The translations under genes and the position numbers were made by a program. 64,000 nt of DNA from Phellopilus nigrolimitatus (lineage: Eukaryota; Basidiomycota; Agaricomycetes; Hymenochaetales; Hymenochaetaceae). Below, in pieces: positions 25,028 through 59,886 of this stretch. The stretch spans positions 1 through 64,000 of the forward strand of contig JAJOHG010000068.1 of the NCBI GenBank assembly GCA_021029095.1. The letters run 5' to 3'. Every line of letters starts with the position of its first letter. Positions within the stretch are counted from its first letter, which is position 1. The notes beneath the pieces are model-generated. The model saw only the letters and a program-made list of their open reading frames with translations, did no database searches and was not told the origin of the DNA.

Positions 25028-26085
25028 GAACGGCAGGTCGCGCGCCGGTCGCCCTGCGCACGCACATTGCAGGCGTGCGCGGTGACATGCGCCTCCCGTG
25101 GCTACTGAAAACCGTGCTCTGCATCGCCAGCACGTCCTTTGCGTTCGCAGTCATCTGCAAGGGGACACGGTTTACGAGACCCTTTCGGGCAAGTAGCGCA
25201 GACGGTCGAGGACAGCCCACAGGGTTCGGGGAATCTACAGTGCCTTGATCAAGAAGAGGGGAAAGCCAACAGGGGACTCAACACTGGGACGACGCGACGC
25301 TTACTCACTCCCTCTCTATCGATGCTGTCGAGACGGCGACCCAGTGAGGTCGTGGCCGCGGACCGTTCGAGATGGACGACGGTGTCGAGTAAGGTTCAGA
25401 AGTGAAGACGGTGTCGAGAAACGGATCAAGTGTCGATCGCGAAGTCAAGAAGAGCGAACGGGAGGTCGAGAAGAGAGAAGATGAGAAGTGTGTGTCAATC
25501 CTATTCGGTGCCGTGATCGCGAAGGGGAAGCCCCTACGATCGCAAAGGGGCCGGAACTCCCCAGAGGGGGGGAACCTCGTACAAGATGCCTCTATCTCGA
25601 TTAAATACCGAATCAATGTTCTGTCTACGGTCCGTGCGCGATCCCTGTAAGGAAACTGATCAAGAGTGCTCCGTGATGTCTCCGCGACCCTACTCATCAT
25701 CCCTGTGTCATCTGCGTCGATCCTCGATCCTTGATCCACGTCCGCGTTCGCGCTCGATCCTTGATCCTTGATCCATGTCCGTGTTCGTGCTCGATCCTCT
25801 CTGCTCGTCCTTGATCCTTGATCTGTCTCAGTGCTCAACCGCGATCCTGTACCTGCTTCGCAACGATATCGGAAGGTAGCCAGTGGTACACTGGTACAAC
25901 GGTTAGACGAGTTGAGAGTGGCAGGCCGCGTGCCAGTTGTCTCCTGCGCACACACATTGCAGGCATTTACGTCGACATGCGCCTCCCGCAGCTGCCGCAA
26001 ACTATCTACTGCATCGTCGTTAGCGTGCCCTTTGAGTTCGCAGTCGTCTGCCATGGGACGAGGTTGGGCGGTTCGAGAATGGGAA
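25028..26085 (+). repeat. GC-rich upstream repeat, two copies in the left flank
   Basis: Two copies of the roughly 150-bp repeat (anchor word GCACATTGCAGG at 25061 and 25951) flank an unrelated low-complexity stretch. Each copy runs from CGGCAGG..GCGCGCCGGT to GTCCTTTGCGTTCGCAGTC followed by CTGCAAGGGGAC-like sequence. The first belongs to the relic promoter at 24.7 kb. The second runs straight into the truncated H' copy. Confidence 0.75.
25250..25880. repeat. Low-complexity stretch rich in GATCCTTGATC and TCGAGA words
   Basis: Between two copies of the upstream repeat lies sequence with irregular short repeats: GATCCTTGATCC-like words at 25725-25825 and CGGTGTCGAG words at 25378-25450. Long open frames here result from base bias. 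No gene is seen. It has no counterpart in the right half of the mirror-image cluster, so it looks inserted. Confidence 0.5.
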
Positions 26086-26270
26086 GGCCCACTTTGTACA
26101 CGATCAAGTACAGCAACTTCAGCGCTGGAAGGTCCGTGCCCCCGGCAACCCGCGTCAGCGCGACCCAGATTGCGAGGCGTGTGCACAACACGCTGGACGG
26201 GCTGCCCGTCGTGCGCGCCGTGGACGCCCGCGCCGTCGCGGGGTTCCAGGACATGGTGTCCAGGCCGTGA
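26085..26270 (+). pseudogene. H': 5'-truncated inverted copy of gene H
   Basis: Reads TLYTIKYSNFSAGRSVPPAT ... VVRAVDARAVAGFQDMVSRP-stop, nearly identical to the last 60 residues of gene H (41231-41622, minus strand). Exon 1, the intron and the motif after the junction are gone; the copy is joined directly to the 150-bp repeat. Homology continues beyond the stop to about 26430, matching 41070-41230. Confidence 0.85.
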
Positions 26271-26439
26271 AGGGTGTTGCATGACGTGCAGCACCGCGTA
26301 TGAGTTGAGTGAGGTGGGGTTCGGCACCTGCGGCGCGCGGTTGGTTAGAAAAAGTCAGGGCGAGCGCAGCCCGACGTATGTACATGTACGAGTGAACGCA
26401 GCCCGGTGGCTGCAAATGAGTTGTCCTTAAGTTCTTGAC

Positions 26440-26800
26440 TGAAGATCACTGTGAACCCGTCGAGGACGACGTGTGGCATAGACGATAGACACGGCGGCTT
26501 TATTAACTTACGTCCCACACAAGAAACCAAAGATAATGAAGAGCCCTGTAGGGAACTTCTCACGTACCAGCCCGCTGTTTTTCGCTATACTCAGAAAGAA
26601 TATAACAGGGCATCTAATGTTTTCCTTAATGCACCGACTGGGCGGGCAAATGTCATTTGGCTGGCCGGAAATGAAAGCACTGCGCTGCGTAGACCTGCTT
26701 TCTGAAATTTACGGTGCTGCCGACTTCGGGGTTCTACGGAACAGACACAGCTATGCTCTATGGTCATGTGCAGAGATGCATTATTATTGTGATTAATCCG
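26440..26800. repeat. 3' flank of gene B (inverted copy at 40180-40525)
   Basis: This flank is nearly the reverse complement of the 3' flank of B'. Convergent open frames through it (for example TYQPAVFRYTQKEYNRASNV) are conserved in both copies simply because the DNA is. A shared tail containing CATGTGCAGAGATGCATT also follows C (31900) and, more diverged, F (29155), so it belongs to the repeated module. Confidence 0.7.
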
Positions 26801-26851
26801 GCAAGCACACAGTCATACATTGTTGTACATGTACGTATACGGCGGTGTCGT

Positions 26852-27494
26852 TTAGTTCGGGTCATACAGACAATCCTTTAACAATTCAAATGCTCGTTCA
26901 TTTCTATTTTCTTCAGGGACATAACTTCCGTTCCCCCTCTCTCCACTGCCAATCTTCATGAGGGAAATGTGATACTTCTTATGACTAGGGTGCGAGACCG
27001 TAAACAAGTTAAAAGCCCTTGCATGAGCATCTGTCGATGCAATCCAATGTGTCAGCACTCTATCCGTTCTAGCTAACGTGAGTGTTACAAACGACGTACA
27101 AGCATTCAATTCCTCTGAGAAGACATCATTGTCTTTTGGAGGACATGCCACATTGGGCTTATCGCGCAGCATCCTGCGCATTTCTGCGTCAAAGTCAGCG
27201 GGCTCGACCTCGTTAGAGTTCTCGTGTTCTTCCACGAAGGCGCCAATCCTATAGAACTGGAAATAATAATATCCCTGTTTACTAGTTGATGGGTAGACTC
27301 TAATGTTGTATCCCTTCGACCAGCCATCTGGTATCACATGTTCAATATCAGTAGTCGGTCCTTTCAGCAGATGGCATTGCTGACTTACAATCCCTTTGTT
27401 CTTTACCGAATTGTTCTTCAGCGATTAGTTCTTTATGGAACTCGGCATAGTCGTGTACTCCGTGAATGTGCTTCCCTTCGCGGCTCTGGGGCAT
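26852..27494 (-). CDS. Gene B: small-family protein (193 aa), two exons
   Basis: Exon 1 is 27494-27389 (MPQSREGKHIHGVHDYAEFH...), the intron 27388-27328 (61 bp, GTAAGT...CAG, phase 1, branch-like CTACTGAT), exon 2 27327-26852. The junction creates YGWSKGYNIRV, the family motif. YYYFQFYRIG follows, then an acidic region and a C-terminal extension (about residues 95-193) that the shorter relatives lack. No signal peptide or membrane segment is seen, so a cytosolic or nuclear protein is likely. TATA (27607-27613) is 119 bp before the ATG. It is the inverted partner of B' (39482-40124), differing at few positions. Function unknown. Confidence 0.8.
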
Positions 27495-27539
27495 CGTTGC
27501 TCTCTTTACGGACATTTAGAAAAATTGTTGTCTTCTTTC

Positions 27540-28440
27540 AGTTAGTAGTATACGGCGAGCGGGGTGTAGAAAAGTCAATGCAAGAAAAACATGCGCGGTG
27601 TCCTGAATTTATACACGTTCGCGAGTTCCACTTTGCTCGCGCCGCCGGATCCAGCGCGGGAATTTTCCCGGCGAAAATTGTGGACTCCGCCTCGGGAGAT
27701 ACTCCGACGAGCTGCATCCGTAACGTGCAAACCAGGATTCCCGTATTTCGCCTCATCTCGTCGTTCCAACGTTGCGTCGGTGCAAATCGCAACGGTCAAA
27801 GTGCGCAATGCACACCTCCTTTTGAGTTCTAGTCCTGCTCTTCATGGGTCTATGGCTTTCTGTCTCCATTGCAGCGATGCTCCGAGGCTCGTGCGAGAAC
27901 GTATCGTGATGACTCTGCGTTTTTTTTTCCTTCTTTGACAGTCAATGTATTTTCCTTTTGCCAGAGCTACGAGCTGTTCGCTTCTGCGCTACCTCCCAGA
28001 GTCGGGGACCGGCCCTCTTACCGCTCCAATTTGCCCCCGTTACAAGATCCAGGGCCTTGATACCATGCGGAGAACAATATGCTTTACGCACCAAGCCAGC
28101 ACCGGCGTGCAAAACAAAAGTAGTTTCCAAGTGGCTAGGGCGCGCAACCGTCCGCGGCCCTCCACGGATTGTCCTGGGGACTGTTATTCTCCAATCAGTT
28201 ACTTTGGATGCGCTCTGCATAGCGAGGACTGTGCTGCGGCTGGGGAGGGTGCCCGGTGCTAGTTTGAGAACGGCAGGCCGCGCTCCGGTTGTCCTGCACA
28301 CGCGCATTGCAGGCGTGCGCGTCAACACGCACCTCCCGTAGCTATTGCAAACCATCCACTACGTCGTCAGCGCGTCCTTTGCGTTCGCAGCCATCTGCGA
28401 AGGGACGAGGTTAGGCCTGGGCGAGCCTGGGTCCGTCCTG
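27540..28440 (-). promoter_or_regulatory. Promoter region of gene B
   Basis: Contains TATAAAT (27607-27613), an upstream block with GCTGGATCCGGC and CGGGAAAATTCCCG shared with the promoters of F, C, C', B' and the relic at 24.7 kb, and one copy of the 150-bp GC-rich repeat (anchor at 28301). The whole region is mirrored at 38290-39470. Confidence 0.65.
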
Positions 28441-29160
28441 CAGCCTCCAGCACGAAGCACAGAAATACCTACAACACTATATATCTCTTCCTGGACGTAT
28501 TTTGCGCATTAGGTATGGAGGCTGGACGACTCGCCTCGCAGCTCCGGCAGAAGACGTCGTTTGAAAGAAAGACGGATGTCGGGCTGGATCGCTCGCGCGG
28601 CGGCTAAGAAGAGAATCGACGCGACTCGCATGGCGCGTAATCGAGGCTTTATTTCGTTCTGGGAGATCGCAGCGACACTGGAGTCTGGACTGGCAGGGTG
28701 CGGAGAGCGGAGAGTGCGGAGGGCGCGCGCCCGACATTCCGACAACAAGCTGAGAGAGGACGGGCTGAGCGATGCGAAACAAACCCCAACAGCCAACGCA
28801 GCAACAGCTTTGCCACGGACGGCCCTACCGGATGCGGACTCAAGAGCCGATAGAGTCCAGACCGCGCCCGCGCCCGGGGGCGGGCTGTGTAGGAAGCAGG
28901 TCAGGCACCCGCGCCTGGGGGACGGCAAAGCGTATATCGTAGAATATTCGTGTATATATATAATTTTGTACTCGTACAAGCCACGTGACGCAACGTCGGC
29001 ACCGAGTCCATCCAGCCTCGGCACAACAAATATATCTCTCATTTTCTCAAAAATGGAAAAGCTACGTCGCTCAGGCCTGTTTTCCGAAATTTCATTTTAC
29101 TGCCAACCCGACAGTGCTATCGGACCGACATAGTTGTGCTCTAAGGCCACGTACAGCGAT
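28430..29160. repeat. Module linker between genes B and F
   Basis: Holds no gene. It includes a block around TCGTTCGAAAGAMRAGACGG (28555) that recurs near 30890, 33345, 35880 and 38160, and, at 28860-28960, the 3' flank of the tetraspan gene M (compare 33780-33900). At 28995-29160 it carries the 3' tail also found inverted at 37430-37560. It is what remains where an M copy once stood. Confidence 0.55.
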
Positions 29161-29181
29161 GTATTATCGTGATCAGTGCTT

Positions 29182-29511
29182 CTACAAGTTCCGAATGACA
29201 CCTCCGACAAAAGACTGCGTATTCAAAAACATTATTACTTCCTCGTCGATGTCCTTCTTGTCGCGGACGCAATTTCCTTCTTGTCTCTTGTCATCAGTTT
29301 TGAGACTGTTAAGCTCAACGTAATACAGCTGAAACCCTTCCTTAGTAGGCTTGACTTCAATGTTGTATCCCTTTTCTATTGCACCTGTCAGTACAATCGA
29401 TCTGTCAGTCTATAGATTCGGCACGAGTGTTCGAGTTGCTGACTACTTACTTTTGGACACTTTCTCTGAAACAAGAGGGTCTTTTTTATACAGCACGATT
29501 CCGTTTGGCAT
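29182..29511 (-). CDS. Gene F: small-family protein (87 aa), two exons
   Basis: Found by splicing; neither exon alone looks like a gene. Exon 1 29511-29451 (MPNGIVLYKKDPLVSEKVSK), intron 29450-29385 (66 bp, GTAAGT...CTGACAG, phase 1), exon 2 29384-29182. The junction gives SAIEKGYNIEV, then FQLYYVELNS and an acidic helix ending NTQSFVGGVIRNL. It matches B, C and C' in intron phase, motif and promoter (TATA 29634-29640, 129 bp before the ATG). It is the shortest member and has no mirror copy on the right. Function unknown. Confidence 0.75.
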
Positions 29512-29599
29512 TGTTGCTCTCTTTGCTGCTTTTTCTGTTTAGGCTGATTTCTTGTCTTCTTTCGCTTTTGTGGTATTGAAACGTCGATGAATTGATGCA

Positions 29600-30770
29600 G
29601 GAAGAATGCGCGCGGTCTCCTGGATTTATACTCGCCCGCAGGCGCGCGCCACTTTGCACCCCGTCGCCGGATCCAGCACGGGAAATTCCCCGACGAAATC
29701 GCTGGAAACCACCTCGGGAAATACGCCGACGAGCCGCATCCGTGGCGCGCGCAATGTGCTTTGCGCGCCAAGTACCGGAAAGCAAAATCGGAAGCAACCT
29801 CTCCAAGTGGCTAGGGCACGCATCCGCCCGCGGCGCGCCGCGGATTGTCCTGGAGACTATTATGCTCCACTCGGTTGCTCTACCTGCCCCTCTGAACAAC
29901 GAGGAGAGAGGACTGCTGCAGCTGGGGAAAGCGCTCGGGGTACTAGTTTGAGAACGGCAGGCCGCGCGCCGGTCGTCCTGCGCACGCACATTGCAGGCGC
30001 ACGCGTCGACATGCGCCTCCCGTAGCTACCGCAATGTAGCTACCGCAAACCGTTTTCTAGGTCGCCAACGCGTCCTTTGCGTTCGAAATCGTCTGCAAGG
30101 AAACGGGGTTGGGCGATTCGAGAATAGCAGGCCGCGCTCCGGTCGTCCTGTGCACGCACAAATTGTAGGCATGAACAATAAGGCTTCCCGGCATTTTGCC
30201 TCACCTCGCCGTCCCAACTTTGCGTACGTCGGGTGCAAATGCGCAACGCATCAAAGTGCGCGTTGCATACTTCCCTTTTTGCAGTCTAGTCCTGTCCTTC
30301 ATGGGCGTATGGCTTGCTGTCAACGGCAGGCCGCGCTCCGGTGGTCCTGCGCACGCACATTGCAGGCGTGCGCGTCGACATGCGCCTCCCGTAGCTACCG
30401 CAAACCGTGCTCTGTGTCGTTAGCGTGTCCTTTGCGTTCGCAAACGGGGATGGGCCAGTCGAGAATGGGCGGACCGCACTCCGGTTGTCCTGCACGCACA
30501 TTGCAGGTGCTTCACGTCTCCCGTATCTATCAAAAACGCCCACTGTGTCGTTGGCGCGCCCTTTGCTTTCACAGCGACACGTAAGGAAACGAGAATGGGC
30601 AAGTCGAGATTGGATTGGGCATGCCGCGCTCCGGTTGTCCTGCACACGCACATTGCAGGCGTCCCACGCCTCCCGTAGCTATCGCAAACAGTCCGCTCTG
30701 TCGTCATCAGTGCGTCCTTTGCGCTCACAGCCGTCTGCGCGGGGACGAGGCTGGGCGAGTCTGAGTCTTT
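29600..30770 (-). promoter_or_regulatory. Promoter of gene F with five upstream repeat copies
   Basis: TATA at 29634-29640 is followed upstream by the shared GGATCCGGC block and then five copies of the GC-rich repeat, with anchors near 29984, 30154 (variant), 30351, 30494 and 30647. Between the second and third copies is a piece of a B-type promoter (CATCAAAGTGCGCRTTGCA, 30248-30268), which points to recombination between modules. This is the largest number of repeat copies in the window. Confidence 0.65.
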
Positions 30771-31679
30771 TTGCAGCTTCCAGCGCGAAGAACACGAACA
30801 CCCGATAATGCTGTACTCTTTTCGCTTTAGCATATGGTGTTAAGCATTAGATACGGAGGGCGGAAAACTCGGAGCTCACTCGAAAGACGTCGTTCGAAAG
30901 ACAAGAAGGATGTCGCGTTGAGATAAGGGCAAGGGCTGGGTCGCGCCGCTATGAATGATAAGAATCGACGGCCGCCGCCTCGTGACTTGAATAATGCTGA
31001 ATCGAGTCTTTATTTCGTTCTGGGAGGTCGTAGCGAGCGATATTAGACTGGCAGGGCGCGGAGAGCGGAGGGCGTATGCCCGACAACAGAATGAGAGGTC
31101 TAAGTGTAAGTTCTGCTCGATGCGAAACAACAGCCTAACCCCAACCTCGCCTGCTTCGTCAGGACACGCTTTTTTCCACGCGCACGCGCGCGCCGCCTCG
31201 GCCCTCTTCGCGCACAGGCGTAGAGTGCCACGGGCCTTTCGTTTAGATCACACGCCGCGCGGACCGTGCGGACCAAACATATTTGCGATTTGCGCCGGCG
31301 TCCTCCCTTTTTTTTCTTTCCTATTTTCTTGCGCCGATCGGGATGCAGAGGAGAAAGGTAATAAGGGCCGCCTGCATATATAAACCGCCCTGCGCGAGCA
31401 CTAGCGAGAGCAGAGGGCATGGACCGTGGAAGCGGCGGGCGCGCTGCGTAGGAAGTCGGCCAAGCCGCACGCGCGGAGCGGTAAAGCGTATATTGCAGAA
31501 CACGTATGTATATAGTTTAGACCACGTATACGTGCAGAGTGCAGCAGGTGGAGAGAAAAAAAAAAATCAGAAATCGAGAAAAAGCGGAGAGCGGCGGCGG
31601 CGGTACATGGAGCAGCGGAAGAGAAGACAGGATATGCGGGATACATGTACTTGGGCAAAACAAAGGCAGAGGAAAGAGG

Positions 31680-31810
31680 AAAGGAGTGCTGCACTCAGAC
31701 TGCACCGGCGCCGTTCACACCGGCGCCCGCGGCGGCACCCGCACCCACTCCCCGCACTCCATCGCGGCAAAGACCTTCACAAGGACGAACAGGCCGAAAA
31801 TGAAAGAGCT
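31680..31810 (-). pseudogene. Fragment of the tetraspan gene M (last exon)
   Basis: The minus strand reads FGLFVLVKVFAAMECGEWVR, close to FGLLTLAKALAAMEYAALRA in M1, and continues into the GCCGGTGTGAACGGCGCCGG tail of M1. The frame is shifted and stops early, and no upstream exons are present. Its downstream flank (31390-31670) matches the flank of M1 at 33720-34045. It shows that an M copy once preceded gene F. Confidence 0.7.
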
Positions 31811-31984
31811 TCGCCGCTTGAGCTTGTTTTTCTGCTCTTTTACCGTGGTGCCTATCTGAGAGTTTTACTGAACAGATATAGGCTTGCTGAGTCCAAGCTC
31901 ATGTGCAGAGATGCATTGTCGTGATCAGTGCTACTACTAGGACACAGTCATACATTGTAGTGCTATGCAATGCGGCTACATAAT

Positions 31985-32365
31985 TTACCGCATTGGTTTC
32001 TCGTACTCCGGGAGTTTTTCTTGTGCCTTGCGGTCGATAACTACCACGCTTTCAAGAGTCTTTCGTACTACCTCGGGCAGTTCTTTTAAGGAACATACGC
32101 TATGGTCGGTATAGAATATTCTCTTGCTCACATCAGAAGGAGCAGCGACCGAATAATAACGGACCACATATTTATCGTCTGGCGTGTTCTCGGTCTTGGA
32201 GAGTTCGATGTTCACTCCCCTCTCCCATCCGACTGTCAATTCAATCTGATAGTCAGTCGACCCGCCCGCTCTAATCCGTGCGAGTATCACTGACGACTTA
32301 CATTCGGCTACATCAAGTGGGACATCTTTATCCCGTTTCTCTCCGTAATATTTAGGGCCGGTCAT
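31985..32365 (-). CDS. Gene C: small-family protein (103 aa), two exons
   Basis: Exon 1 32365-32302 (MTGPKYYGEKRDKDVPLDVAE), intron 32301-32233 (69 bp, GTAAGT...GACAG, phase 1, CTGACTATC branch), exon 2 32232-31985. The uninterrupted reading frame through the intron is accidental. Splicing gives FGWERGVNIEL, then KYVVRYYSVA, and the protein ends EYEKPMR. TATA-like TATAAAC (32462-32468) is 103 bp before the ATG. C' has the same exon 1 length, intron length and QYKKPMR-like end, so the two are mirrored but strongly diverged in protein. No signal peptide. Function unknown. Confidence 0.75.
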   Translation of the reverse strand: MTGPKYYGEKRDKDVPLDVAECKSSVILARIRAGGSTDYQIELTVGWERGVNIELSKTENTPDDKYVVRYYSVAAPSDVSKRIFYTDHSVCSLKELPEVVRKTLESVVVIDRKAQEKLPEYEKPMR

Positions 32366-32399
32366 TGTTTCTCTTTTGTTGTCTTTTCAGTAGTTTCTT

Positions 32400-33240
32400 T
32401 CGCTTTTGCGGTGCTGGGGCGTGGACGAATTGATGCAGGAAGAACATGTGCGGCGTCCTGAGTTTATACGCGTCCGCGAAGTTCCACTTTGCTCCCGCCG
32501 CCGGATCCAGCACGGGAAATTCCCCGGCGAAATCGCTGGAAACCACCTCGGGAAATACGCCGACGAGCCGCATCCGTGGCGCGCGCAATGTGCTTTGCGC
32601 GCCAAGTACCGGAAAGCAAAATCGGAAGCAACCTCTCCAAGTGGCTAGGGCACGCATCCGCCCGCGGCGCGCCGCGGATTGTCCTGGAGACCATTATGTT
32701 GCTTTGCCTGCGCTCCTGCATAGCGAGGACTGTGCGGCGGCCGGGGAGCGTGCCCGGTGCTAGTTTGAGAACGGCAGGCCGCGCTCCGGTCGCCCTGCGC
32801 ATGCACAATGCAGGCGCACGCGTCGACACGCGCCTCCCGTAGCTACCGCAAATCGTTTGCTAGGTGGCTAGCGCGTCCTTTGCGTTCGCAGACATCGGCG
32901 AGGGGACGGGGTTGGGAGTCGCGAGAGTGGTAGGCCGCGCGCCGGTCGTCCTGCGCACGTGCATTGCAGGCGTGCGCGTCGACGCTCGTAGCTACCGCGT
33001 GCACTGTGTCGTCAGCGCGTCCTGTGCGTGCGCAGCCATCGGAAAGGGGACGGAGTTGGGCGAGTCAAGAATGGGCAGGCCGCGCGCCGGTTGTCCTGTA
33101 CATACACGTCCCACGCTTCCCGTAGCTACTGCAAACTGTCCGCTCTGTCGTCAGCGCGTCCTTTGCGTTCGCAGTCGTCTGCGCGGGGACGAGGCTGGGC
33201 GAATCTGGGTCTTTCTGCGGCCTCCAGCACGAAGCACAGA
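32400..33240 (-). promoter_or_regulatory. Promoter of gene C with three upstream repeat copies
   Basis: TATA-like box at 32462-32468; the shared block at 32500-32660 is nearly identical to that of gene F. Three GC-rich repeat copies follow, with anchors near 32801, 32957 and 33096 (the last one variant). Confidence 0.65.
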
Positions 33241-34045
33241 CTCGGAAATAACCAATAATAATGATATATATTTCTTCCTGGTCGTATTTCGAGCATGAAG
33301 TACGGAGACTGCGCGACTTGGGAGTGCACGGGAAAGACACGTCGTTCGAAAGACGAGACGGATGTCGCGGTGGGTGGCTCGTTGAGGTAAAGGAAAGGGC
33401 TGGGTCGCGCGCGCGCGGCCGCCAAGAAGAGAATCGACGCGATGAGCGGAGGGCGTGCGCCCGACACCCCGACAACGCCAAGCTGGGAGGACCGTCACGG
33501 GCTGCGCGATGCGGAAACCACTCCCCCAACAGCCAACAGCCCTCCGGGAGTCCGGAAGGACCGCCGTGTTTCGGTCATCAGTCCTGCACCGCCGCCACGG
33601 CCCTGCCAGGTGCGGACTCGGAGCCGACAGAGTCCGGCCCGCGCCCGCGCCCGGGGTGGCGACGCGTGTCTTACGCGCCACAGTAAGGGCGTCTTGGCTG
33701 GGCACGAAATAGCGCGGCGCGCGGGTTAGCTGAAGCTACATAACACGCCTTGCGCGCGTACGAGTGAGAGCAGTGGGACGGAGCGCGCGGGCGGCGGGCG
33801 CGCGCCGCACAAGAAGCAGGTCAGGCCGTCCACGCGCGCGGGGGGAACGGTAAATCGTATATATATCGCAGAATATGCACGTATATCATATAGCCTAGAT
33901 CGTATACACGCAGCGCGCAGCAGGCGGCGAGAAAAAAAAAATCAGAAAGCAAGAAAAGGCGGAGAGCGGCAGCGATACGAGAAGACAGGATAATGTGGGA
34001 GAATACATGAGCGAAAAAAGCAACCACAAAAAAAAAGCAAAGAAA
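33240..34045. repeat. Module linker between gene C and gene M1
   Basis: No gene is seen. It carries the TCGTTCGAAAGA block (33345) and the 3' flank of M1 with CGTATATATATCGCAGAATA (33858) and an A-rich stretch, all repeated near 31390-31560 and partly near 28860-28960. Confidence 0.5.
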
Positions 34046-34071
34046 AAGCGGAGAGAAAGAAAACGCTGCGT

Positions 34072-34927
34072 TCAGACCGCGCCGGCGCCGTTCACGCCGG
34101 GGCCCGCTCCATTCACGCCGGGGCCCGCCGCCGGGGCGCCCGCGACGCCCTTCTCCCCCACACCAGCAGCGCCGACGCCCGCCCCCGCACCGCGCGCGCG
34201 GAGCGCCGCGTACTCCATCGCGGCCAGGGCCTTCGCGAGGGTGAGCAGGCCAAAGGCGATCCACGCGAGCGCGACGATCGCGCGCAGGACGTGGCCCTGC
34301 TTGCCTGGGGGCGTCTGGAGGCTGTTCGGCCACTTGTTCTGCATTTTTTTTTTTTTTTTGGGGGGCGTCAGTTTTCCCGCGAAAGGAGAGGAAGGGGGAC
34401 GCACGGTCGCGATGGCGCCGCCGATGAGCCACATGAGCCAGAGGACGAGGTTGAGGAAGGTCTCGCCGTGCAGCAGGGAGAAGCCCGGGCGTGCGCCCGC
34501 GCCTGCACCTGCACCAGTGTTCGCGGCGGCGCCGTCACCTGCGCGCGTACCCGCACCGCGGTGGTGGAACAGGATCGTGAACGGGATCCAGAGCAGCGTG
34601 AGCAGGGCGGTGACGAGCAGCTCGGCGACGATCGGGTCTACGCGCGGTGCGTGAGTGAGACACGGCGGGTCTGGGGGAGAGACGGCGGGGCGGGGGGGGG
34701 GGGGGGGGGGGGGGCTTACCGTAGACGCCGGCGAGGGAGCGGGTGTGGTGGATGCGGTAGCCGGTGAGCCCGAGCTCGGCGAGCGCGAAGAGCCACTGCG
34801 TGCGCGGGGCGGGGCGGGGTCAGTACAGGGTCAGGGCAGGGGGCGGATGCGAGTGGGGGACGGGACTGACGAGGAGCGCGTAGATGCCGGTGCGGTGGGG
34901 GACGTAGGACGTTGTGTCTCCGCGCAT
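34072..34927 (-). CDS. Gene M1: tetraspan (MARVEL-like) membrane protein, four exons
   Basis: Spliced reading: MRGDTTSYVPHRTGIYALL | WLFALAELGLTGYRIHHTRS... | DPIVAELLVTALLTLLWIPF...WLMWLIGGAIAT | NKWPN...HVLRAIVALAWIAFGLLTLA. Four hydrophobic segments fit a small four-pass membrane protein of the type usually annotated MARVEL-like in basidiomycetes. Two donor sites are unusual (GTCAGT and GTGCGT). Intron 2 starts GTAAG and runs directly into a 23-base C run (34692-34714 on the plus strand). The C-terminus repeats GPGVNGA. It sits at the centre of the mirror-image cluster. Paralogue: M2 (51510-52213), with the same exon borders. Confidence 0.75.
34692..34714. repeat. Poly-G/poly-C run at the 5' end of M1 intron 2
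   Basis: 23 consecutive G on the plus strand (C in the transcript), starting five bases inside the intron. M2 lacks it. Confidence 0.9.
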
Positions 34928-34929
34928 CG

Positions 34930-35530
34930 TGGTCGGTGTCGGGGTTGGCGGGAGTTGGTGCGGGAGTTGGTGTTGGTGCGGGGCGGCTGGCGGCTGGCGA
35001 TGGAGGTGGAGAAGAGACGAGGGGCGAGAGACAACGCAGAGCGGCGCCGGGTGGTTTATATAGCGCGAGCGAGCGTGCCCGCCGCGTTGTACCGTGTCAG
35101 CCCAGGCATGACGCCCTCGATGACGCTGCGCGTGACGCGCGGCCGGCGGGGACAGCAGGCGCGCTGCCAGATTCTGGAGGCAGCGCGTAAGAGACGACGT
35201 CACTCCGTCACTCCGGGCGGGGCCTGAACTCTATCGGCTCCGACTCGGAGCCCGCATCCGCATCCGGTAGGGCCGTGGCCGTGGATGGACTCGTGGCAGT
35301 ACACAGCCTAACGCAGATCATCGACCGACGACCGCCCGACTCCTCCAACCAGCCGACCTTGCCAATGCCGCGCGCCGTCCGCAAACGGAGCATCCGCGCG
35401 TCTGAAAGCGGGGAGTGCGTCTACGTCTGCGGGGTCGAAAACGCGCTTGCAGTCGCTCGCCGGCGCGGACGTCGCGGTCGATAGAAGCGAACGGTGTGAG
35501 TACGAGGCTGCAACGTCTGCGACGGGTTAG

Positions 35531-35568
<38 letters not shown>

Positions 35569-36000
35569 TGTGCCGCTGAGTTGAAGCAGATGGCGCTGGG
35601 GTCCAGCGCTCGTGACGACTGTGAGCCGGTTAGCCCGTTTCACGTGACTGAAGCCGAGTCCGATGCGCCGTCACGCTGCTCCCAGCTTGGCGTTGTCGGG
35701 GTGTCGCGCGCACGCCCTCCGCGCTCTCCAGTGCCGCTACGACCTCCCTGAGCGAAAACAAAGCCTCTATTGCGCGCCACGCGAGTAGCGTCGATTCTCT
35801 TCTCAGCGGCCGCGCGCGCGATCCAGCCCTTTCCTTTACCCCAACGAGCCACACACCGCGACATCCGCCTTGTCTTTCGAACGACGTGTCTTTCGAGTGC
35901 GCTCCAGGTTGCGCATCCATCGTACCTAATGCTCCAAATACGTCCAGGAAGAAATATGTAGTGTTGTGGGTATTTCTGTGCTTCGTGCTGGAGGCTGCAG
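34930..36000. other. Upstream region of M1 and linker to the right half of the cluster
   Basis: No gene is seen. A TATATAA-like word lies at 35057. A (CTTT)n microsatellite occupies 35533-35569. From about 35640 the sequence is the inverted counterpart of the linker blocks at 33250-33530 and 28500-28750 (TCTTTCGAACGACGTGTCTT at 35874). The mirror axis of the cluster therefore lies in or next to M1. Confidence 0.55.
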
Positions 36001-36620
36001 AACGGACACAGACTCGCCCAGGCCCAGCCTCGTCCCCGCGCAGACGACTGCGAACGCAAAGGACGCGCTTACGACGACCGAGCGGACGGTTTGCGGTAGC
36101 TACGAAGCTACGGGAGACGCGCAGGACAACCGGCGCGCAGCCTGCCCATTCTCGACTCGCCCGAGTCCGTTTCCCCTTGCAGATGTCCGTCAAAGCAAAG
36201 GACGCGCTAGCGACGCAGAGCACGGTTTGCGGTAGCTGCGGGAAGCGAGTGTCGCCGCGCACGCCTGCAATGTACGTGTGCAGGACAACCGGAGCGCGGC
36301 CTGCCGTTGGCAGCAAGCTACAGACCCATGAAGGACAGGACTAGACTGAAAAAGGAGGTGTGCATCGCGCACTTTGACACGTTGCGATTTGCACCCGACG
36401 AGCGCAAAGTTGGAAATGCCGGGAATCCTAGTTTGCACGCAGCACGCCACGGATGCAGCGCGCCGAAGTATCCCCCGAGGTGGTTACCAGAGTTTTCGTC
36501 GGGAAACTTCCCGTGCTGGATCCGGTCTGACGGGGTGCAAAGTGGTGCTCGCGGACGAGTATAAATCCAGGACACCGCCCATGTTTTTTTCTGCATCAAT
36601 TCGTCGACGCCCCACACCGC
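36000..36620 (+). promoter_or_regulatory. Promoter of gene C' with inverted upstream repeats
   Basis: TATAAAT at 36560-36566, 103 bp before the ATG. Upstream is the GGATCCGGTC block and two copies of the GC-rich repeat in the opposite orientation to the left half (near 36118 and 36263). A B-type promoter segment (GCATCGCGCACTTTGACACG, 36361) is fused between them. Confidence 0.65.
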
Positions 36621-36662
36621 AAAAGCGAAAGAAAGTATCAGAAAGACGACAAAAGAGAAACA

Positions 36663-37058
36663 ATGACCGAGTTTGGATTTATCAAGAAACACCGGTACCC
36701 TGACGTCCCACTTCATGTAGTCGAATGTAAGTCGTCAGCGATACTCGCACTGACTAGATCGGGCTGATTGACCGATTGTCGGATTGAATTGACAGTTGCG
36801 TGGAAAAAGGGACGGAACGTCGAGCTCATCCCGAAGAGCAAAGAGAACAGGGCGCAGGTCAATCGCCCTTGGTATACGATCCATCTTTATATTATTGGCA
36901 CCCCCGTAACGGACCCCAGGAACCGTCTCACCGAGTCTGACCCGGTGCACTTGGATGGTGTATTCGACCAAGTGAAAACTATGCTTCAAGATGAACCTGA
37001 CGTCGACATCAACAAAGACGGCCGAGCGGGACAATACAAGAAACCAATGCGTATGTGA
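36663..37058 (+). CDS. Gene C': small-family protein (108 aa), two exons
   Basis: Exon 1 36663-36726 (MTEFGFIKKHRYPDVPLHVVE), intron 36727-36795 (69 bp, GTAAGT...GACAG, phase 1), exon 2 36796-37058. A stop inside the intron separates the two frames. The junction gives FAWKKGRNVEL, then PWYTIHLYIIG and an acidic helix (HLDGVFDQVKTMLQDEPDVD). It ends QYKKPMRM. It mirrors C in position, exon lengths and promoter. Splice borders are supported by exact conservation of intron length between C and C'. Function unknown. Confidence 0.75.
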
Positions 37059-37059
37059 G

Positions 37060-38280
37060 AAATGTCTTCGGTACCCCTAAAGAAAGGAAGGCCTGTCCCG
37101 TTTGCGCAGTGCACGGCTCGGCGTTGTTTCGCGTATGGTACGCTGCCAGTTCAAAGTTTCTCATATGTATCTAGGGTAAAGCCTTGCATAAATACACAAC
37201 ATTGTTTGACCTTTTTTGTGTGAACAAGAGCCACCTTCTTTTCTTTTTTTGGGAGGGGCGAATACTTTTCTGCCTCACCTATACATTATATGACTGCTCT
37301 AGAGGTACCAACCACGACAAGGAACCTCAGCACATGGCCTTAGAATAGAATTAAGTACAGCCGTTTTCTAACCATAAAATTGCCGAACATGCTGATCAAG
37401 CTTTCTGCCTTCGAAGAAAACAAACGCATTCACGGTAATACATCGCTTAGAGCATAACTATGTCGGTCCGATAGCACTGTCAGATTGGCAGTAAAGTGAG
37501 ATTTGACGTAGCTTTTCCATTTTGAGAAAATGAGATATATATATTTGTTGTGCCGACTCTGCCGAGCCCGCATCCGGCAGGCTTGCGTTGACTCACGCGG
37601 CTTGTACGAGTACAACTTCTGCTTGGGCGGGCGCCGTGTACCTCGAAGCGGGGGTGTATTCAGCGAACGTGTGCGCCGCGCTGTTTCGTTCCCAGCCCAG
37701 TCAAAGCGCCCTTAATAGCAGCGCCACCCATGCGCGCGCGGGCCGGGACTCTGCATCCCGATCGGCGCAAGTAAAAAGGAAAGAAAAAAAGGGAGGACGC
37801 GCAAATCACAAATATTATTTCCGTCCGCAGGTCGTAATATACAGGCACCGCGTCCTGACGAAGCAGGCGAGGCTGGGGGAGGGCCGTTGCGAGTGGCTGT
37901 TGGGGGATGTTTTGGCATCACTCAGACCGTCCTCCCAGGTTGTTGTCGGGGTGTCGGGCGCACACTCCCCGCGCCCTCCGCTTTCAGCGCCCTGCCAGCT
38001 CAGTGTCGCTCGCTATGACCTCTCGGAACGAAATAAAGGCTCGATTCAGCGTTATCCAAGTCACCAGGCGGCGGCTGTCGATTATTTTCTTAGGGGCCGC
38101 GCGCGCGCGACCCAGCCCCTTCCCCTTACCTCAACGAGCACCCACCGCGACATCCGCCTTGTCTTTCAGACGACGTCTTTTGACGGAGCTGCGAGGCGAG
38201 GCGTCCAGCCTGCGCATCTAACGCTTAACATATGCTGAGGGAAAGCACAGCATTATCGGGTATTCGCGTTCTTCGTGCTG
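37060..38280. repeat. Linker between C' and the B' promoter
   Basis: No gene is seen. 37430-37560 is an inverted copy of the 3' tail of gene F (28995-29160). 37740-37830 is an inverted copy of 31270-31390 (GATCGGGATGCAGAG word). 37905-38280 is the inverted linker with TCGTTCGAAAGA-type sequence. The mixture shows that the right half derives from more than one left-half module. Confidence 0.55.
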
Positions 38281-38289
38281 GAAGTTGCA

Positions 38290-39470
38290 GCAAGACCCAG
38301 GTCGTCCCTCCCCTCGCAGATGCCTGCAAACCCGAGGGGCGCGCTGACGACAGAGCGGACGGTTTGCGGTAGCTACGGGAGGCGAGTGTCGGCGCGCACG
38401 CCTGCAATGTGCGTGCTCAGGACTACCGGAGCGCGGCTTGCCACTCTCGACTTGCCTAGCCTTGTCCCCTTGCAGATTGACTGCAAACGCAAAGGGCGCG
38501 CTATCGACGCAGAGCACGGTTTGCGGTGGCTACGAGATGCGTGGGACGCCCGCAATGTGCGTGCGCAGGGAGACCGGAGCGCGGCCTGCCCAACCCAATC
38601 TTGAATCACCCATCCCCGTTTCCTTACAGCTCGCTGTGAAAGCAAAGGACGAGCTAACAAAGATGCAGTGAATGGTTTGCAATAGCTACGGGAGGTGCAT
38701 GTCGACGCGCACGCCTGCAATGCGCGTGTGCAGGACGACCGGAGCGCGGCCTGCCGTTCTCAAACTAGCACCGGGCGTCCTCTCTGGCCGTAGCACAGTC
38801 CTCGCTATGCTGGAGCGCATACAAAGTAGCCGATTGGAGAATAATAGTCTCCAGGACAATCCGCGGCGCGCCGCAGGCGGGTGCGCGCCCTACTTGGAAA
38901 CTGCTTCCGATTTTGTATGCCGGGAATCCCGGGCTTGAATGTCGTAACGGGCGCGAATTGGAGCGGTAAGAGCGCCAGTCCACCGACTCTGGGAGGTAGC
39001 GCAGAAGCGAACCGTTCGTAGCTCTGACACATAGAAAACACTACGGCTGTCAAGGGGGGGAACAATAACGCAGACACGTTCTCACACAAGCCTCGGAGCA
39101 TCGCTGCAATGGAGACAGCAAGCCATAGGCCCATGAAGAGCAGGACTAGAACTCAAAAGGAGATGTGCATCACGCACTTTGGCCGTTGCGATTTGCACCG
39201 ACGCAATGTTGGGACGACGAGATGAGGCGAAATTCGGGAATCCTGGTTTGCACGTTACGGATGCAGCTCGTCGGAGTATCTCCCGAGGCAGATTCCACAA
39301 TCTTCGCCGGGAAAATTCCCGTGCTGGATCCGGCGGCGCGAGCAAAGCGGAACTCGCGAACGAGTATAAATTCAGGACCGCGCATGTTTTTCTTGCATCG
39401 ACTTTTCTACGCCCCGCTCGCCGTATACTACTAACTGAAAGAAGACAACAATTTTTCTAAAAATCCATAA
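38290..39470 (+). promoter_or_regulatory. Promoter of gene B' with three inverted upstream repeats
   Basis: Mirror image of the gene B promoter. TATAAAT at 39365-39371, 117 bp before the ATG. Copies of the GC-rich repeat lie near 38401, 38551 and 38713, so B' has two more copies than B. Confidence 0.65.
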
Positions 39471-39481
39471 AGAGAGCAACG

Positions 39482-40124
39482 ATGCCTGAGCGCCGCGAAG
39501 GGAAGCACATCCACGGAGTACACGACTATGCCGAGTTCCATAAAGAACTAATCGCTGAAGAACAATTCGGTAAAGAACAAAGGGATTGTAAGTCAGCAAT
39601 GCCATCTGCTGAAAGGACCGACTACTGATATTGAACATGTGATACCAGATGGCTGGTCGAAGGGATACAACATTAGAGTCTACCCATCAACTAGTAAACA
39701 GGGATATTATTATTTCCAGTTCTATAGGATTGGCGCCTTTGTGGAAGAACACGAGAACTCTAACGAGGTCGAGCCCGCTGACTTTGACGCAGAAATGCGC
39801 AGGATGCTGCGCGGTAAGCCCAACGTGGCATGTCCTCCAAAAGACAATGATGTCTTCTCAGAGGAATTGAATGCTTGTACGTCGTTTGTAACACTCGCGT
39901 TAGCTAGAGCGGATAGAGTGCTGACACATCGGATTGCATCGACAGATGCTCATGCAAGGGCTTTTAACTTGTTTACGGTCTCGCACCCTAGTCATAAGAA
40001 GTATCACATTTCCCTCATGAAGATTGGCAGTGGAGAGAGGGGGAACGGAAGTTATGTCCCTGAAGAAAATAGAAATGAACGAGCATTTGAATTGTTAAAG
40101 GATTGTCTGTATGACCCGAACTAA
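39482..40124 (+). CDS. Gene B': small-family protein (193 aa), two exons
   Basis: Exon 1 39482-39587 (MPERREGKHIHGVHDYAEFH), intron 39588-39648 (61 bp, phase 1), exon 2 39649-40124. The spliced protein carries YGWSKGYNIRV and YYYFQFYRIG and then the long C-terminal part, ending LLKDCLYDPN. It differs from B by only a few residues (for example RR for QS near the start, G for D in MLRGKPN). The identical exon structure and full-length frame in both copies argue that both are, or were recently, functional. No export signal is seen. Function unknown. Confidence 0.8.
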
Positions 40125-40179
40125 ACGACACCGCCGTATACGTACATGTACAACAATGTATGACTGTGTGCTTGCCGGA

Positions 40180-41070
40180 CTAATCACGATAATAATGCAT
40201 CTCTGCACATGACCATAGAGCATAGCTGTGTCTGTTCCGTAGCACCCCGAAGTCGGCAGCACCGTAAATTTCAGAAAGCAGGTCTACGCAGCGCAGTGCT
40301 TTCATTTCCGGCCAGCCAAATGACATTCGCCCGCCCAGTCGGTGCATTCAGGAAAACATTAGATGCCCTGTTATATTCTTTCTGAGTATAGCGAAAAACA
40401 GCGGGCTGGTACGTGAGAAGTTCCCTACAGGGATCTTCGTTATCTTTGGTTTCTTGTGTGGGACGTAAGTTGGTAAAGCCGCTGTGTCTATCATCTATGC
40501 CACGCGTCGTCTCGCAGCGAGCCTCGCCGCAAGCGAGGCAATAAGCGGTGTGCGCATTATGGTCCCGCCGCCTGCGTTCTGCGCCCGCATACCAGCTACA
40601 TGTAACTGATTGTGCGGCGCACGGGGCTGGCTTCAGTGCAAACAGTGATATCGGCCTCTGGAGAATTAAATTTAAAGATCGACTGCGAGGAATAGCACCT
40701 GTCTCACGTGACCGAAGACGCTGCGAGACGCGCGATCTCCCTCTGGCGTGCTGCTCTGCCGCCCTTGCTATATCTGAAACCGAGACCACTTGCGGTGATA
40801 CATACTTTCTAAACACGCTCCCTCCGCAGACGGTTTTTCAAAAAGGAACGTTGCAAGCATACGAGCGTCACGGCACACAGCTAAACCAGCGTGCTCCGCG
40901 GCAGACTCTCGACTGTTTTCGACTGTGCGCGTCATGCGTCTGACCGTGCGCTGTCTGCTTCTTCATTGACTGGACGCTCAAGAACTCAATATGACGAGCT
41001 ACTGGTTGGCATCGTCACTCACACACGAAGGCGGCATCTGCACCGCTCGCCCTGATCTTCAGTCAAGAAC
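40180..41070. other. 3' flank of B' and unique spacer
   Basis: 40180-40525 is the inverted copy of 26440-26800. 40525-41050 has no counterpart in the left half and no convincing gene; open frames here lack splice partners and family resemblance. From 41070 homology to the left half (26270-26430) resumes. Confidence 0.5.
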
Positions 41071-41230
41071 TTAAGGACAACTCATTTGCAGCCACCGGGC
41101 TGCGTTCACTCGTACATGTACATACGTCGGGCTGCGCTCGCCCTGACTTTTTCTAACCAACCGCGCGCCGCAGGTGCCGAAACACACCTCACTCAACTCA
41201 TACGCGGTGCTGCATGTTACGCAATGCCGT

Positions 41231-41622
41231 TCACGGCCTGGACACCATGACCTGGAACCCCGCGACGTCGCGCGCGTCCACGGCGCGCACGACGGGCAGC
41301 CCGTCCAGCGCGTCGTGCACACGCCCCGCAATCTGGGTCCCGCTGACGCGGGTTGCCGGGGGCACGGACCTTCCAGTGCCGAAGTTGCTGTACTTGATCG
41401 TGTACAAAGTGTTGTCGTCCACCTGCCGGTAGAAGTCGAGCTTGTATCCTTTCGCGTATGCGACTGTCGGCATGATCAAACGTGTCCGCGTCAGTTATAC
41501 CGCGCGCGAGCTGGCGATGCTGGTGACTTACATAAAGTCAGGTCTTGGAGTGGGTCGGGATTCGTCTCGAATGCGAGTACGTCAGCGCCGTGATTTGGCG
41601 CGCCGGCATGTGGGGCAGGCAT
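41231..41622 (-). CDS. Gene H: small-family protein (107 aa), two exons
   Basis: Exon 1 41622-41532 (MPAPHAGAPNHGADVLAFET), intron 41531-41464 (68 bp, GTAAGT...GACAG, phase 1), exon 2 41463-41231. The junction gives FAYAKGYKLDF, then LYTIKYSNFGTGRSVPPATR and a C-terminal helix ending VSRP. A TATA-like GATAAAA lies at 41721-41727, about 105 bp before the ATG. Intron phase, spacing and motif place it in the same family, although the rest is strongly diverged. H' at 26085-26270 is a truncated mirror copy. Function unknown. Confidence 0.7.
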
Positions 41623-41639
41623 TTCGTGTTGTCTTCTTT

Positions 41640-42590
41640 TCTCGTGAGTGCGACAAGTAACTGTGTAGATGTAGACGAACCGAAACGAGCTGCAGGGACA
41701 TTTTCCCCAAACGCCCTGGCTTTTATCCGCGACTATCAATTCCGGCATTTCGCGGAACGCCGACGCCGATCTAATGCTTTGCACACCGCGTCTTGCATTG
41801 CGTGCAAAACAACGAGCAGCTTGAGCTCGTAAGTGGCAAATCGGCTCCCGGTCGCATTTTGCTTACTAGCGCTTGCCTCCTTCGGGCTCGTCTGGTTTGC
41901 ACGTCTACTGCAGGCCGACCAGTTTATCTTGTCTCCATGAATATTTGGCTTCTTTGTGCTTTGTGCTTTGTGCTTTGTGCTTTGTGTGTTTGCTTTTGCG
42001 CCCAGTTCGTTCCACCTGCGGCGAAGGATGCGTCGATTCGTTGCCACCGATGTCGACGTCCGGCCCGTGCTGTCCTCCGCAAACCGACTGGAAGTGAAGA
42101 TGAAAGAGAATACACGTATTTACCGCTGTGCGGAGAGAACGCGAAGCGAGAGGACCCGGACTCGGGCGCAGATGTTGACACAAGTCAATACGGCTCATAA
42201 GAAATTGGTTTGGAGAAACCTGCCGGGAACGCAGGCGAGAATGGCCCAGAAAGTCAAGAGCGCGGGTGCGGGCGCACGAAAACAAAGAATCAAACGCGCA
42301 AGCAAATTTCGCCCGGTCAGGCTCCAGCGTGGTCTGCGCTCGCGTCTCGCGGCAAGCCTCTTCAAGCGCAAGCGCCAAGTAGCACTCGCTTGCTCATATA
42401 AGCATGGATTAAATTTGCATCGCCGTAGCGTGCAAACATGATTAGCTTCCAACGCCATGGTCGCACTAAGCACGCTAGAAAAGCGGGTGCGTATAAAAAC
42501 CCAGGAGGATCGACTGTGCCTTTTTAACATTCTACAATTTGTCCTGCTTAGCTGTGGAAAAGAAGGGCAAAGCTCCAGAAGAGCGATACC
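41640..42590. promoter_or_regulatory. Divergent intergenic region between H and E
   Basis: H (minus) and E (plus) are divergent relatives sharing this 970-bp region. It has TATA-like boxes for each gene (41721-41727 and 42492-42498), both 103-105 bp before the respective ATG. Unlike the other members, the GC-rich 150-bp repeats are absent, so these two genes may be regulated differently. Confidence 0.55.
41948..41990. repeat. Short TGCTTTG heptamer array
   Basis: About five copies of the 7-bp word TGCTTTG in a row between divergent genes H and E. Confidence 0.8.
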
Positions 42591-42594
42591 GACA

Positions 42595-43023
42595 ATGTCT
42601 AGCTTTCTCGACCTCAACGAGACCTCGCCCAACGCCGGACCGCCCAGTCTGCGCCCCATGCCCCCGAAAGACAAGCCCAAACAGATTATCTCAGACAAGT
42701 CCATCAAATGTAAGGCACGACGTTGAAGCGGGATACGATTATAAACTGATTTTTATAATATGACAGTGGCAGGAAGCAAAGGCTTCAGGGTCACCACCGA
42801 CAGCGAGGACAAGGAGAACCTCGTATGGAGGCTCCACTTCACGCCCATCAACACGGACGACAAGCTCGTGCGGAAGACATTTTACAAGGTCGCGCTCAAC
42901 GAAATTGACGAATTTGTGGAGGAGTTTTGCGAACAGTATCATGATGCGGTGAGTTATGGCGGTCTGTTTATCTGTCGGATTCCTTTCACTCACTCACGTA
43001 CTGTAACGGCACGTATGGCATAG
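42595..43023 (+). CDS. Gene E: small-family protein (about 123 aa), two or three exons
   Basis: Exon 1 42595-42709 (MSSFLDLNETSPNAGPPSLR), intron 42710-42766 (57 bp, GTAAGG...GACAG, phase 1), exon 2 from 42767. The junction gives LAGSKGFRVTT, then LVWRLHFTPI and the helix EIDEFVEEFCEQYHDA. TATAAAA at 42492-42498 lies exactly 103 bp before the ATG. The frame can run to a TAG at 43021-43023. Alternatively a second intron (GTGAGT after HDA, to CATAG) would give a slightly different tail. It is the most diverged member and lies outside the mirrored cluster. Function unknown. Confidence 0.65.
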
Positions 43024-43024
43024 G

Positions 43025-58681: not shown

Positions 58682-58689
58682 TCACATAA

Positions 58690-59880: not shown

Positions 59881-59886
59881 GTGTCT

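Follow-up and report, generated by a model that had tools for sequence, protein, structure and literature searches.

Control DNA that stays alike beside fast-changing proteins is a pattern of gene families in biological conflicts. In the Hessian fly, the SSSGP-1 family comprises seven clustered genes over 15 kb, one of them inverted among tandem copies, with highly diversified coding sequence beside a conserved promoter, conserved UTRs and a conserved intron (PMC2955719). In snake three-finger toxins, short coding stretches are radically replaced between paralogues, a process termed accelerated segment switch in exons, or ASSET (PMC2711939). Agaricomycete mushrooms have defence proteins that are kept in the cytoplasm and are in some cases induced by attack (PMC6238071).

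The window, by which we mean the whole 64,000-nucleotide stretch of Phellopilus nigrolimitatus DNA analyzed here, also holds seven clustered genes with similar noncoding DNA beside diverged coding DNA. The trait common to ASSET and SSSGP-1 is present, as noncoding DNA is more conserved than coding DNA between paralogues, with the caveats that the 3' flank of C/C' is strongly diverged and that the module exon is often alike over its first 36 nt. The SSSGP-1 proteins are insect effectors that are secreted and have conserved signal peptides, while the fungal proteins have no apparent signal peptide; a saprotrophic fungal host, a module that looks like a 1-1 exon and an upstream repeat are further differences. 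Unlike the ASSET toxins, the fungal proteins contain zero to three cysteines and no hydrophobic N-terminus. With the mushroom cytoplasmic defence proteins they share the lack of an apparent signal peptide or membrane span (by Kyte-Doolittle scan only), but neither Pfam nor the fold search ties the module to those proteins. A non-exhaustive literature search returned no fungal intracellular case of conserved noncoding DNA around fast-changing exons or of segment replacement.

Module, introns and members of the family

The anatomy of this orphan family, that is its module, introns and members, is firmly established. A sequence-only reading had proposed that seven genes of the window form one family, with a GT-AG intron in phase 1 immediately ahead of a common motif, and this was confirmed throughout: splicing was reproduced for all seven, intron 1 is in phase 1 in each of them (61 nt in B and B', 69 nt in C and C', 66 nt in F, 68 nt in H and 57 nt in E), and a homologous module of about 60 residues follows it. 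In leave-one-out profile searches, where the sister module of B or K stayed in the profile when the other was tested, and likewise C' for C, 10/10 modules scored above all 2000 shuffles and above all 949 window ORFs outside the cluster. The narrowest margins were those of H (11.2 bits, with a shuffle maximum of 6.4 and a background of 8.1) and E (12.8 bits, with 9.7 and 6.4, respectively).

A single module is used in F (29182..29511, minus strand; exons 29451-29511 and 29182-29384; 87 aa), C (31985..32365, minus strand; exons 32302-32365 and 31985-32232; 103 aa), C' (36663..37058, plus strand; exons 36663-36726 and 36796-37058; 108 aa), H (41231..41622, minus strand; exons 41532-41622 and 41231-41463; 107 aa), E (42595..43068, plus strand; exons 42595-42709, 42767-42948 and 43024-43068; 113 aa) and G. 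A tandem pair is found in B (26852..27494, minus strand; exons 27389-27494, 27100-27327 and 26852-27030; 170 aa; phase-1 introns of 61 and 69 nt), B' (39482..40124, plus strand; exons 39482-39587, 39649-39876 and 39946-40124; 170 aa) and K. G and the two-module K are further members beyond those recognized earlier, and both lie outside the window. Across the nine genes, 12/12 module-preceding introns are in phase 1 and directly 5' of the module, and all of these except that of G match the branch-point consensus CTRAY. The additional phase-0 intron of E has no CTRAY match; it ends the protein at 113 aa, as in the database protein P0001. Note that P0001 (113 aa), P0002 (107 aa) and P0003 (103 aa) of the same species are identical to spliced E, H and C. 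From alignment we infer that the contigs C38, C106 and C533 represent the other haplotype; 9/9 genes and the 6/6 alleles present on C38 have kept intact reading frames, start codons and splice sites. The cluster also contains a large inverted duplication with degenerate relics. H' (26090..26270, plus strand) is the 3' half of an H-like gene in inverted copy, and a third B-like gene (24556..24774, minus strand) is reduced to its promoter and the start of exon 1.

B and B' encode another, diverged module that follows a second phase-1 intron, which had escaped the earlier reading. In K, each of the two modules is likewise preceded by a phase-1 intron, the second of these measuring 57 nt. Provided that intron 2 is spliced, this arrangement gives the module of B, B' and K the appearance of a symmetrical 1-1 exon. 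A reading in which intron 2 is no intron in B and K appears rather unlikely to us; B would then be a single-intron protein of 193 aa with a longer linker before module 2. Such a protein would match the database model P0005 (193 aa), which is the B allele of the other haplotype, spliced at intron 1 but not at intron 2, and in B, B' and K the length of intron 2 is a multiple of three and the frame is open when it is retained. The intron interiors argue otherwise. The intron of C resembles intron 2 of B at z 5.9 and the latter resembles intron 2 of K at z 6.6 (both z 5.9 with the branch site also held fixed), and seven pairs that include intron 2 of B or of K stand at z 4.0-6.6, or at z 3.3-5.9 with the branch site fixed; within genes, neither introns 1 and 2 of B' nor those of K reached z 3 as a pair. 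In addition, intron 2 carries GT-AG and CTRAY signals, and the identical phase of the 57-nt intron in K likewise speaks for a true intron. Of the protein sizes given previously, 87-193 aa, the upper value is thus the reading with intron 2 retained, while B and B' with two phase-1 introns measure 170 aa.

Structure prediction of the common 60-residue core yielded usable confidence for module 1 of B, which is predicted as a beta-beta-alpha fold with a pLDDT of 80. A Kyte-Doolittle scan of the nine proteins detected no hydrophobic N-terminus, in line with the export signals having been reported as lacking, and no membrane-like stretch; the proteins are apparently intracellular and soluble.

Common upstream DNA and diverged exons

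The core promoter of B' (39349..39481, plus strand) reads cgaacgagTATAAATtCAGGA ... TTTTTCTTGCATC ... TCTACgCCCC, and a similar element is found upstream of B, C, C' and F, as well as of G and K outside the window. With B omitted because it nearly duplicates B', promoter similarity reached z≥3 in 18/28 pairs of eight genes, including 15/15 among B', C, C', F, G and K. The TATA-to-ATG spacing, previously stated as 103-129 bp in all genes, is corrected to 103-119 bp, and H has GATAAA at 105 instead of a TATA box. At 358-778 bp from the ATG, a repeat of about 115 bp is present in one to five copies in all seven of B, B', C, C', F, G and K, with 0 matches in 18 control loci. In the window there is one copy at B (28272..28385, plus strand; 778 bp from the ATG), five at F, one of them partial (29956..30725, plus strand; nearest 445 bp), three at C (32773..33169, plus strand; nearest 408 bp), two at C' (36053..36305, minus strand; nearest 358 bp) and three at B' (38329..38755, minus strand; nearest 727 bp), and two copies lie beside the B-like and H-like relics (25032..26038, plus strand). 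H and E lack the repeat, and their promoters resemble the others only weakly. Repeat and common promoter are both additions to the sequence-only reading.

Promoter and intron DNA is often recognizable where coding DNA no longer is. Introns reached z≥3 in 18/45 pairs (16/45 in a second run with the branch site held fixed), compared with 3/28 for exon 1, 11/45 for the whole module exon and 6/45 for the module exon after nt 36; the first 36 nt of this exon, which are coding, are alike in 24/45 pairs. Fast evolution with duplication, as proposed earlier, is supported by the B/B' and C/C' pairs, with 3/170 residues differing between B and B', and 125/245 exon-2 sites between C and C' versus 11/69 intron sites. 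The C and C' promoters differ at 25/129 positions in one alignment and 17/128 in another, and in exon 1 a stretch of about 35 nt is replaced between conserved DNA on either side. As the C/C' 3' flank (92/175 positions different) is as diverged as exon 2, part of the contrast between coding and noncoding DNA is a 5'-to-3' gradient that could equally result from conversion of the 5' half. The C/C' codon counts show no positive selection, since dN/dS is 0.68 (dN 0.70, dS 1.03) with synonymous sites near saturation. Constraint does exist, as the module motif is kept among members whose exon DNA for the most part aligns no better than shuffled sequence.

We tentatively favor, while granting it somewhat less than an even chance, a co-regulated family of small, soluble intracellular binding proteins that is restricted to one lineage and diversifies rapidly in biological conflict. 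The unit would be one beta-beta-alpha module encoded by one exon, which a phase-1 intron precedes. The KGxNI-beta hairpin may form the constant scaffold, and the helix and the stretch after it the variable contact face. The proteins could act as variable binding modules, be it as inhibitors, decoys or recognition partners, that are made together under one programme. By analogy to the mushroom cytoplasmic defence proteins, the likeliest conflict would be the chemical defence of the mycelium against attacking animals or microbes.

A serious though somewhat unlikely competitor is an ordinary young orphan family, copied by local inverted repeats and only weakly constrained, with no arms race at work. 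The likeness of promoters and introns would then reflect recent duplication and gene conversion in those parts, and the large inverted duplication with its relics, the diverged C/C' 3' flanks and the dN/dS value fit this picture, as do the short, flank-homogenizing conversion tracts proposed for the comparable insect family (PMC2955719). It accords less well with the intact structure of all genes and of their alleles on C38, with the replacement in exon 1 of C/C' between conserved DNA, and with the constraint evident from the motif.

Differences between the two haplotypes

Gene C is hypervariable between haplotypes. Its alleles differ at 19/103 residues, 14 of which fall into residues 70-93, a 24-residue stretch over the predicted helix. 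In this segment, which was picked post hoc, nonsynonymous differences (17/53.8) exceed both synonymous ones (1/18.2; Fisher p 0.03) and those in noncoding DNA (19/198; p 2e-4), while for C as a whole the nonsynonymous excess is not significant (p 0.31). No allele of C' was found on C38. Differences in the other genes amount to 5/170 residues in B, 8/170 in B', 2/107 in H, 0/113 in E and 0/87 in F; allelic dN/dS is below 0.5 for B, B', H and E, and F is without change. Whole-gene positive selection for B, B', F, H and E is unsupported by the allelic codon counts. From 31.7 to 36.5 kb, 9/16 steps of 300 bp differ by at least 5% between haplotypes, compared with 1/30 aligned steps from 22.4 to 31.7 kb. 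The earlier reading had not covered the haplotypes.

The binding-protein family that we favor may also be read, with more doubt, as a fungal intracellular system in which one beta-beta-alpha exon lies between phase-1 introns that are kept alike. Copies of this exon would have arisen inside single genes as well as from gene to gene, with a multi-copy upstream element peculiar to the family in front, and its helix region would have diversified between paralogues as well as between both nuclei that share a mycelium. Co-regulation would rely on the conserved blocks of promoter, repeat and intron, and so would recombination, in which whole genes such as C' may be gained or lost.

A role in fungal self/non-self recognition or antiviral immunity, of the heterokaryon incompatibility type, appears unlikely to us. 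Here, haplotype-specific variants would be recognized once unlike nuclei share a cell, and the missing C' allele, the concentration of differing steps from 31.7 to 36.5 kb, the divergence of the C alleles and the intracellular appearance of the proteins are in line with this. Nevertheless, a Pfam scan of six neighbouring ORFs revealed no HET, NLR or other recognition domain, both unlike haplotypes coexist in one assembled genome, and B, B', H, E and F are little different between them. If the family does belong to a defence or recognition system, both haplotypes can be compared within this wood-decay fungus, which also combines hypervariable C, presence/absence variation of C' and a common control element, and the link between conflict, exon module and noncoding homogenization would therefore be directly testable.

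Searches for relatives

The statement that no named family has such a signature was upheld. A Pfam scan of eight family proteins, with B' standing for B, gave 0/8 above the gathering cut-off (best E 0.015), and protein database searches, which depend on shared 5-residue words, returned no named relative outside Phellopilus nigrolimitatus and one further match, P0004, without a named source. The fold search gave no confident match for the predicted module. DUF1508/YegP-type domains have a small beta-beta-alpha arrangement and occur in tandem copies; the Foldseek rows of this type are weak (TM 0.48-0.49, E 0.24-0.36), and the module has no Pfam match.

The census of the fungus's own genome consisted of single-protein searches with loose first looks, so that diverged members may be missed; a weak match lies at C13:884941 (E 0.43). 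A genome pattern for module-preceding introns, set against 23 known introns over both haplotypes and by its design unable to match intron 1 of B/B' or the G intron, produced 40 matches, 17 of them known introns and 23 at other places. Eighteen of these 23 were examined and none reads as a module; in the remaining five, the matched letters agree fully or almost fully with those of one of the eighteen. As the reversed pattern gave 39 control matches, this approach has little power for new members.

Finally, an origin of the module in a mobile element or virus, with the genes as domesticated or passenger copies, is highly improbable: two retrotransposon-like stretches do lie near the repeat-rich cluster, but no relative of B', the one protein searched, was confirmed in viral contigs, the best PHROGs E value over nine modules was 0.076, the genes contain spliceosomal introns, and 34/34 matches of a 201-bp query containing the upstream repeat fall on the two allelic cluster contigs.

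Gene models and membership of the family

The seven genes B, B', C, C', F, H and E splice as the sequence-only reading had claimed; in each of them the KGxN-like motif is preceded by a phase-1 GT-AG intron. Spliced E, H and C are identical to three database proteins, and a fourth, P0005, is the allele of B on contig C38 with an intron 1 of 888 nt spliced out; all four are assigned to Phellopilus nigrolimitatus. C38 aligns along the cluster as its allelic partner, and judging from sequence two haplotypes appear to have been assembled apart in the 56.4-Mb fungal genome of the window; a published table lists 56.7 Mb for the saprophytic Phellopilus nigrolimitatus (Hymenochaetales) (PMC10410303). 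The 888-nt intron contains an insertion of 827 nt (C38 about 22992-23816; L023, record coordinates), which the P0005 model removes together with it. The inserted stretch sits between A and T, with TC at its 5' end and a hairpin followed by CTGG at its 3' end, and we take these ends to be Helitron-like.

Against profiles built without the module under test, all ten modules outscored 2000 shuffles of themselves and the 949 ORFs of the window outside the cluster, with narrow margins for H (11.2 bits vs 8.1), E (12.8 vs 9.7) and the second module of B (13.3 vs 7.2). A further member, G, lies 7 kb past the window end (C601:70.9-71.2 kb) and has an allele on contig C106 with identical coding letters. 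A genome-wide pattern search returned 40 matches, 17 of them at introns already known to precede a module and 23 elsewhere; no new module was found in the 18 of the latter that were inspected, and the pattern adds little because its backward control gave 39 matches. The earlier statement that no named family is known was borne out, as protein searches gave no named relative outside Phellopilus nigrolimitatus; P0004, a C-like protein, is encoded on a short contig. Relative to the libraries searched this is a new gene family, and the original observation is confirmed and enlarged.

Second module, promoter and upstream repeat

In B and B', a 69-nt phase-1 interval is followed by YAHARAFNLFTVSHPSHKKYHISLMKIG, in which module 1, YGWSKGYNIRVYPSTSKQGYYYFQFYRIG, is repeated in diverged form. 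The same build is found in K, a member on contig C37 with an allele on C533, where the interval is 57 nt, again in phase 1. From its sequence the interval looks like an intron: GT-AG and CTRAY are both present, and seven pairings with introns of other members reach z 4.0-6.6 against shuffles (z≥3 counted as alike), or 3.3-5.9 with the branch site also held fixed. It is these signals and this likeness that speak against retained coding sequence without an intron, a reading to which the database model, by retaining the interval, lends support, as do the open frame upon retention in B, B' and K and the comparison of introns 1 and 2, which stays below z 3 within B' and within K. If the interval is spliced, the module would be a symmetrical 1-1 exon, present once or twice.

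A recognisable promoter, from the TATA to about the ATG, is common to B, B', C, C', F, G and K. Counting eight genes, without B as a near-copy of B', z≥3 is reached in 18/28 promoter pairs, namely in every one of the 15 pairs that B', C, C', F, G and K form with each other, and in C-H, C-E and C'-E at z 3.1-4.1. The TATA-to-ATG distance is 103-125 bp across nine genes, H having GATAAA. Upstream of all seven promoter-sharing genes, 358-778 bp from the ATG, stand one to five copies of a ~115-bp repeat, throughout in a single orientation relative to the gene; the window holds 16 copies, two adjoining relics. K and G have one copy each, at 423 and 622 bp, and both were matched by a single-copy query before joining the profile (E 1.5e-6 and 6.2e-5). 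H and E lack the repeat, and no copy was found elsewhere in the window or in a control set of 18 loci totalling 21,895 bases. A 201-bp query holding the repeat, too strict for K and G, gave 34 matches, all on the two allelic cluster contigs.

Divergence between paralogues and haplotypes

C and C' differ at 25/129 sites in the promoter and 11/69 in the intron, as against 24/64 in exon 1 and 125/245 in exon 2 (Fisher tests with promoter and intron pooled as reference: p 0.002 for exon 1, 4e-13 for exon 2), a contrast into which a 5'-to-3' gradient is mixed because the 3' flank has diverged as much as exon 2 (92/175). The state of this flank argues against an arms-race reading, as does a dN/dS of 0.68 with near-saturated synonymous sites. 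By codon position, differences amount to 0.50, 0.44 and 0.50. Two replaced stretches lie between conserved blocks, one of ~35 nt within exon 1 and one covering most of exon 2 beyond about nt 36; similarity returns in the final codons (KPMR). Family-wide, z≥3 is reached by introns in 18/45 pairs (16/45 with the branch site fixed), by exon 1 in 3/28, by the whole module exon in 11/45 and by the 3' flank in 1/28; when the module exon is split, its first 36 nt do so in 24/45 and the remainder in 6/45.

B' and C, although unlike in their coding parts, resemble each other over the 120 nt that follow them (z 12); this shared 3' block is seen behind B' and at 26757-26826 and 31892-31961. The inverted arms with B and B' (26465-27905 and 39073-40511) are 94-98% alike, and the arms around C and C', compared over upstream repeat and intron, 81-82%, one inverted duplication with uneven homogenisation.

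Measured in 300-bp steps against C38, haplotype divergence is 0-2.4% at 22.4-31.7 kb save one step at 8%, with ~25.2-25.9 kb lacking an aligned partner, and 0.7-10% at 31.7-36.5 kb with one step at 26% and at least 5% in 9/16 steps. The ~2.1 kb with C' has no allele on C38; just past this stretch, divergence is 8-21% (38.3-39.2 kb), and 0-3.3% at 39.2-44 kb. Left of C', C38 matches C601, the contig of the window, at 97.5% until the C' upstream repeat ends, where it crosses to the B' side. This crossing suggests that C' was gained or lost through recombination between the C' and B' repeat arrays, although the join is not sharply placed because the right-hand match is only ~80%. A second raised stretch (3-14%) occupies 45800-47000, beyond a pyridine nucleotide-disulphide oxidoreductase gene.

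Alleles differ at 19/103 residues in C, 5/170 in B, 8/170 in B', 2/107 in H, 0/113 in E and 0/87 in F, whose C38 allele ends three residues later. In C, 14/19 changes fall within residues 70-93, a segment picked after the data were seen, where nonsynonymous differences (17/53.8) exceed synonymous ones (1/18.2, p 0.03) and a noncoding yardstick (19/198, p 2e-4); over the whole gene the nonsynonymous excess is not significant (p 0.31).

Possible role and surroundings

The modules, introns, promoters, repeats and divergence pattern were demonstrated or computed, and the kind of evolution that they display is already known from elsewhere. Its nearest parallel, in pattern and not in kinship, is the Hessian fly SSSGP-1 cluster, described as seven clustered genes with diversified coding sequence and conserved promoter and intron (PMC2955719). 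The proteins would be small, soluble and produced jointly, an unchanging hairpin being paired with a variable helix region that would form the contact face, and would serve in biological conflict. We hold this role tentatively, as possible rather than probable, the nearest functional model among mushrooms being the cytoplasmic anti-grazer proteins (PMC6238071). That the family is simply young and unremarkable seems somewhat unlikely, and self/non-self or antiviral recognition is an unlikely role.

Related ORFs outside the family flank the region at 20139-22238 and 57369-60342 (e.g. VYAIFGIETSEGVKEMGILV and IYAIFNTGTEIGVKTLGILV); none of three scanned had a Pfam match, and they may form a further small-protein family of this locality. 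The stretches at 9821-14475 (+) and 14808-19340 (-) resemble retrotransposons, apparently of Ty3/Gypsy type to judge from their long ORFs. Between C and C', close to the midpoint of the inverted duplication, there is a probable gene at 34072-35000 (-) with hydrophobic segments by eye and one ORF giving a weak Pfam hint below the cut-off.
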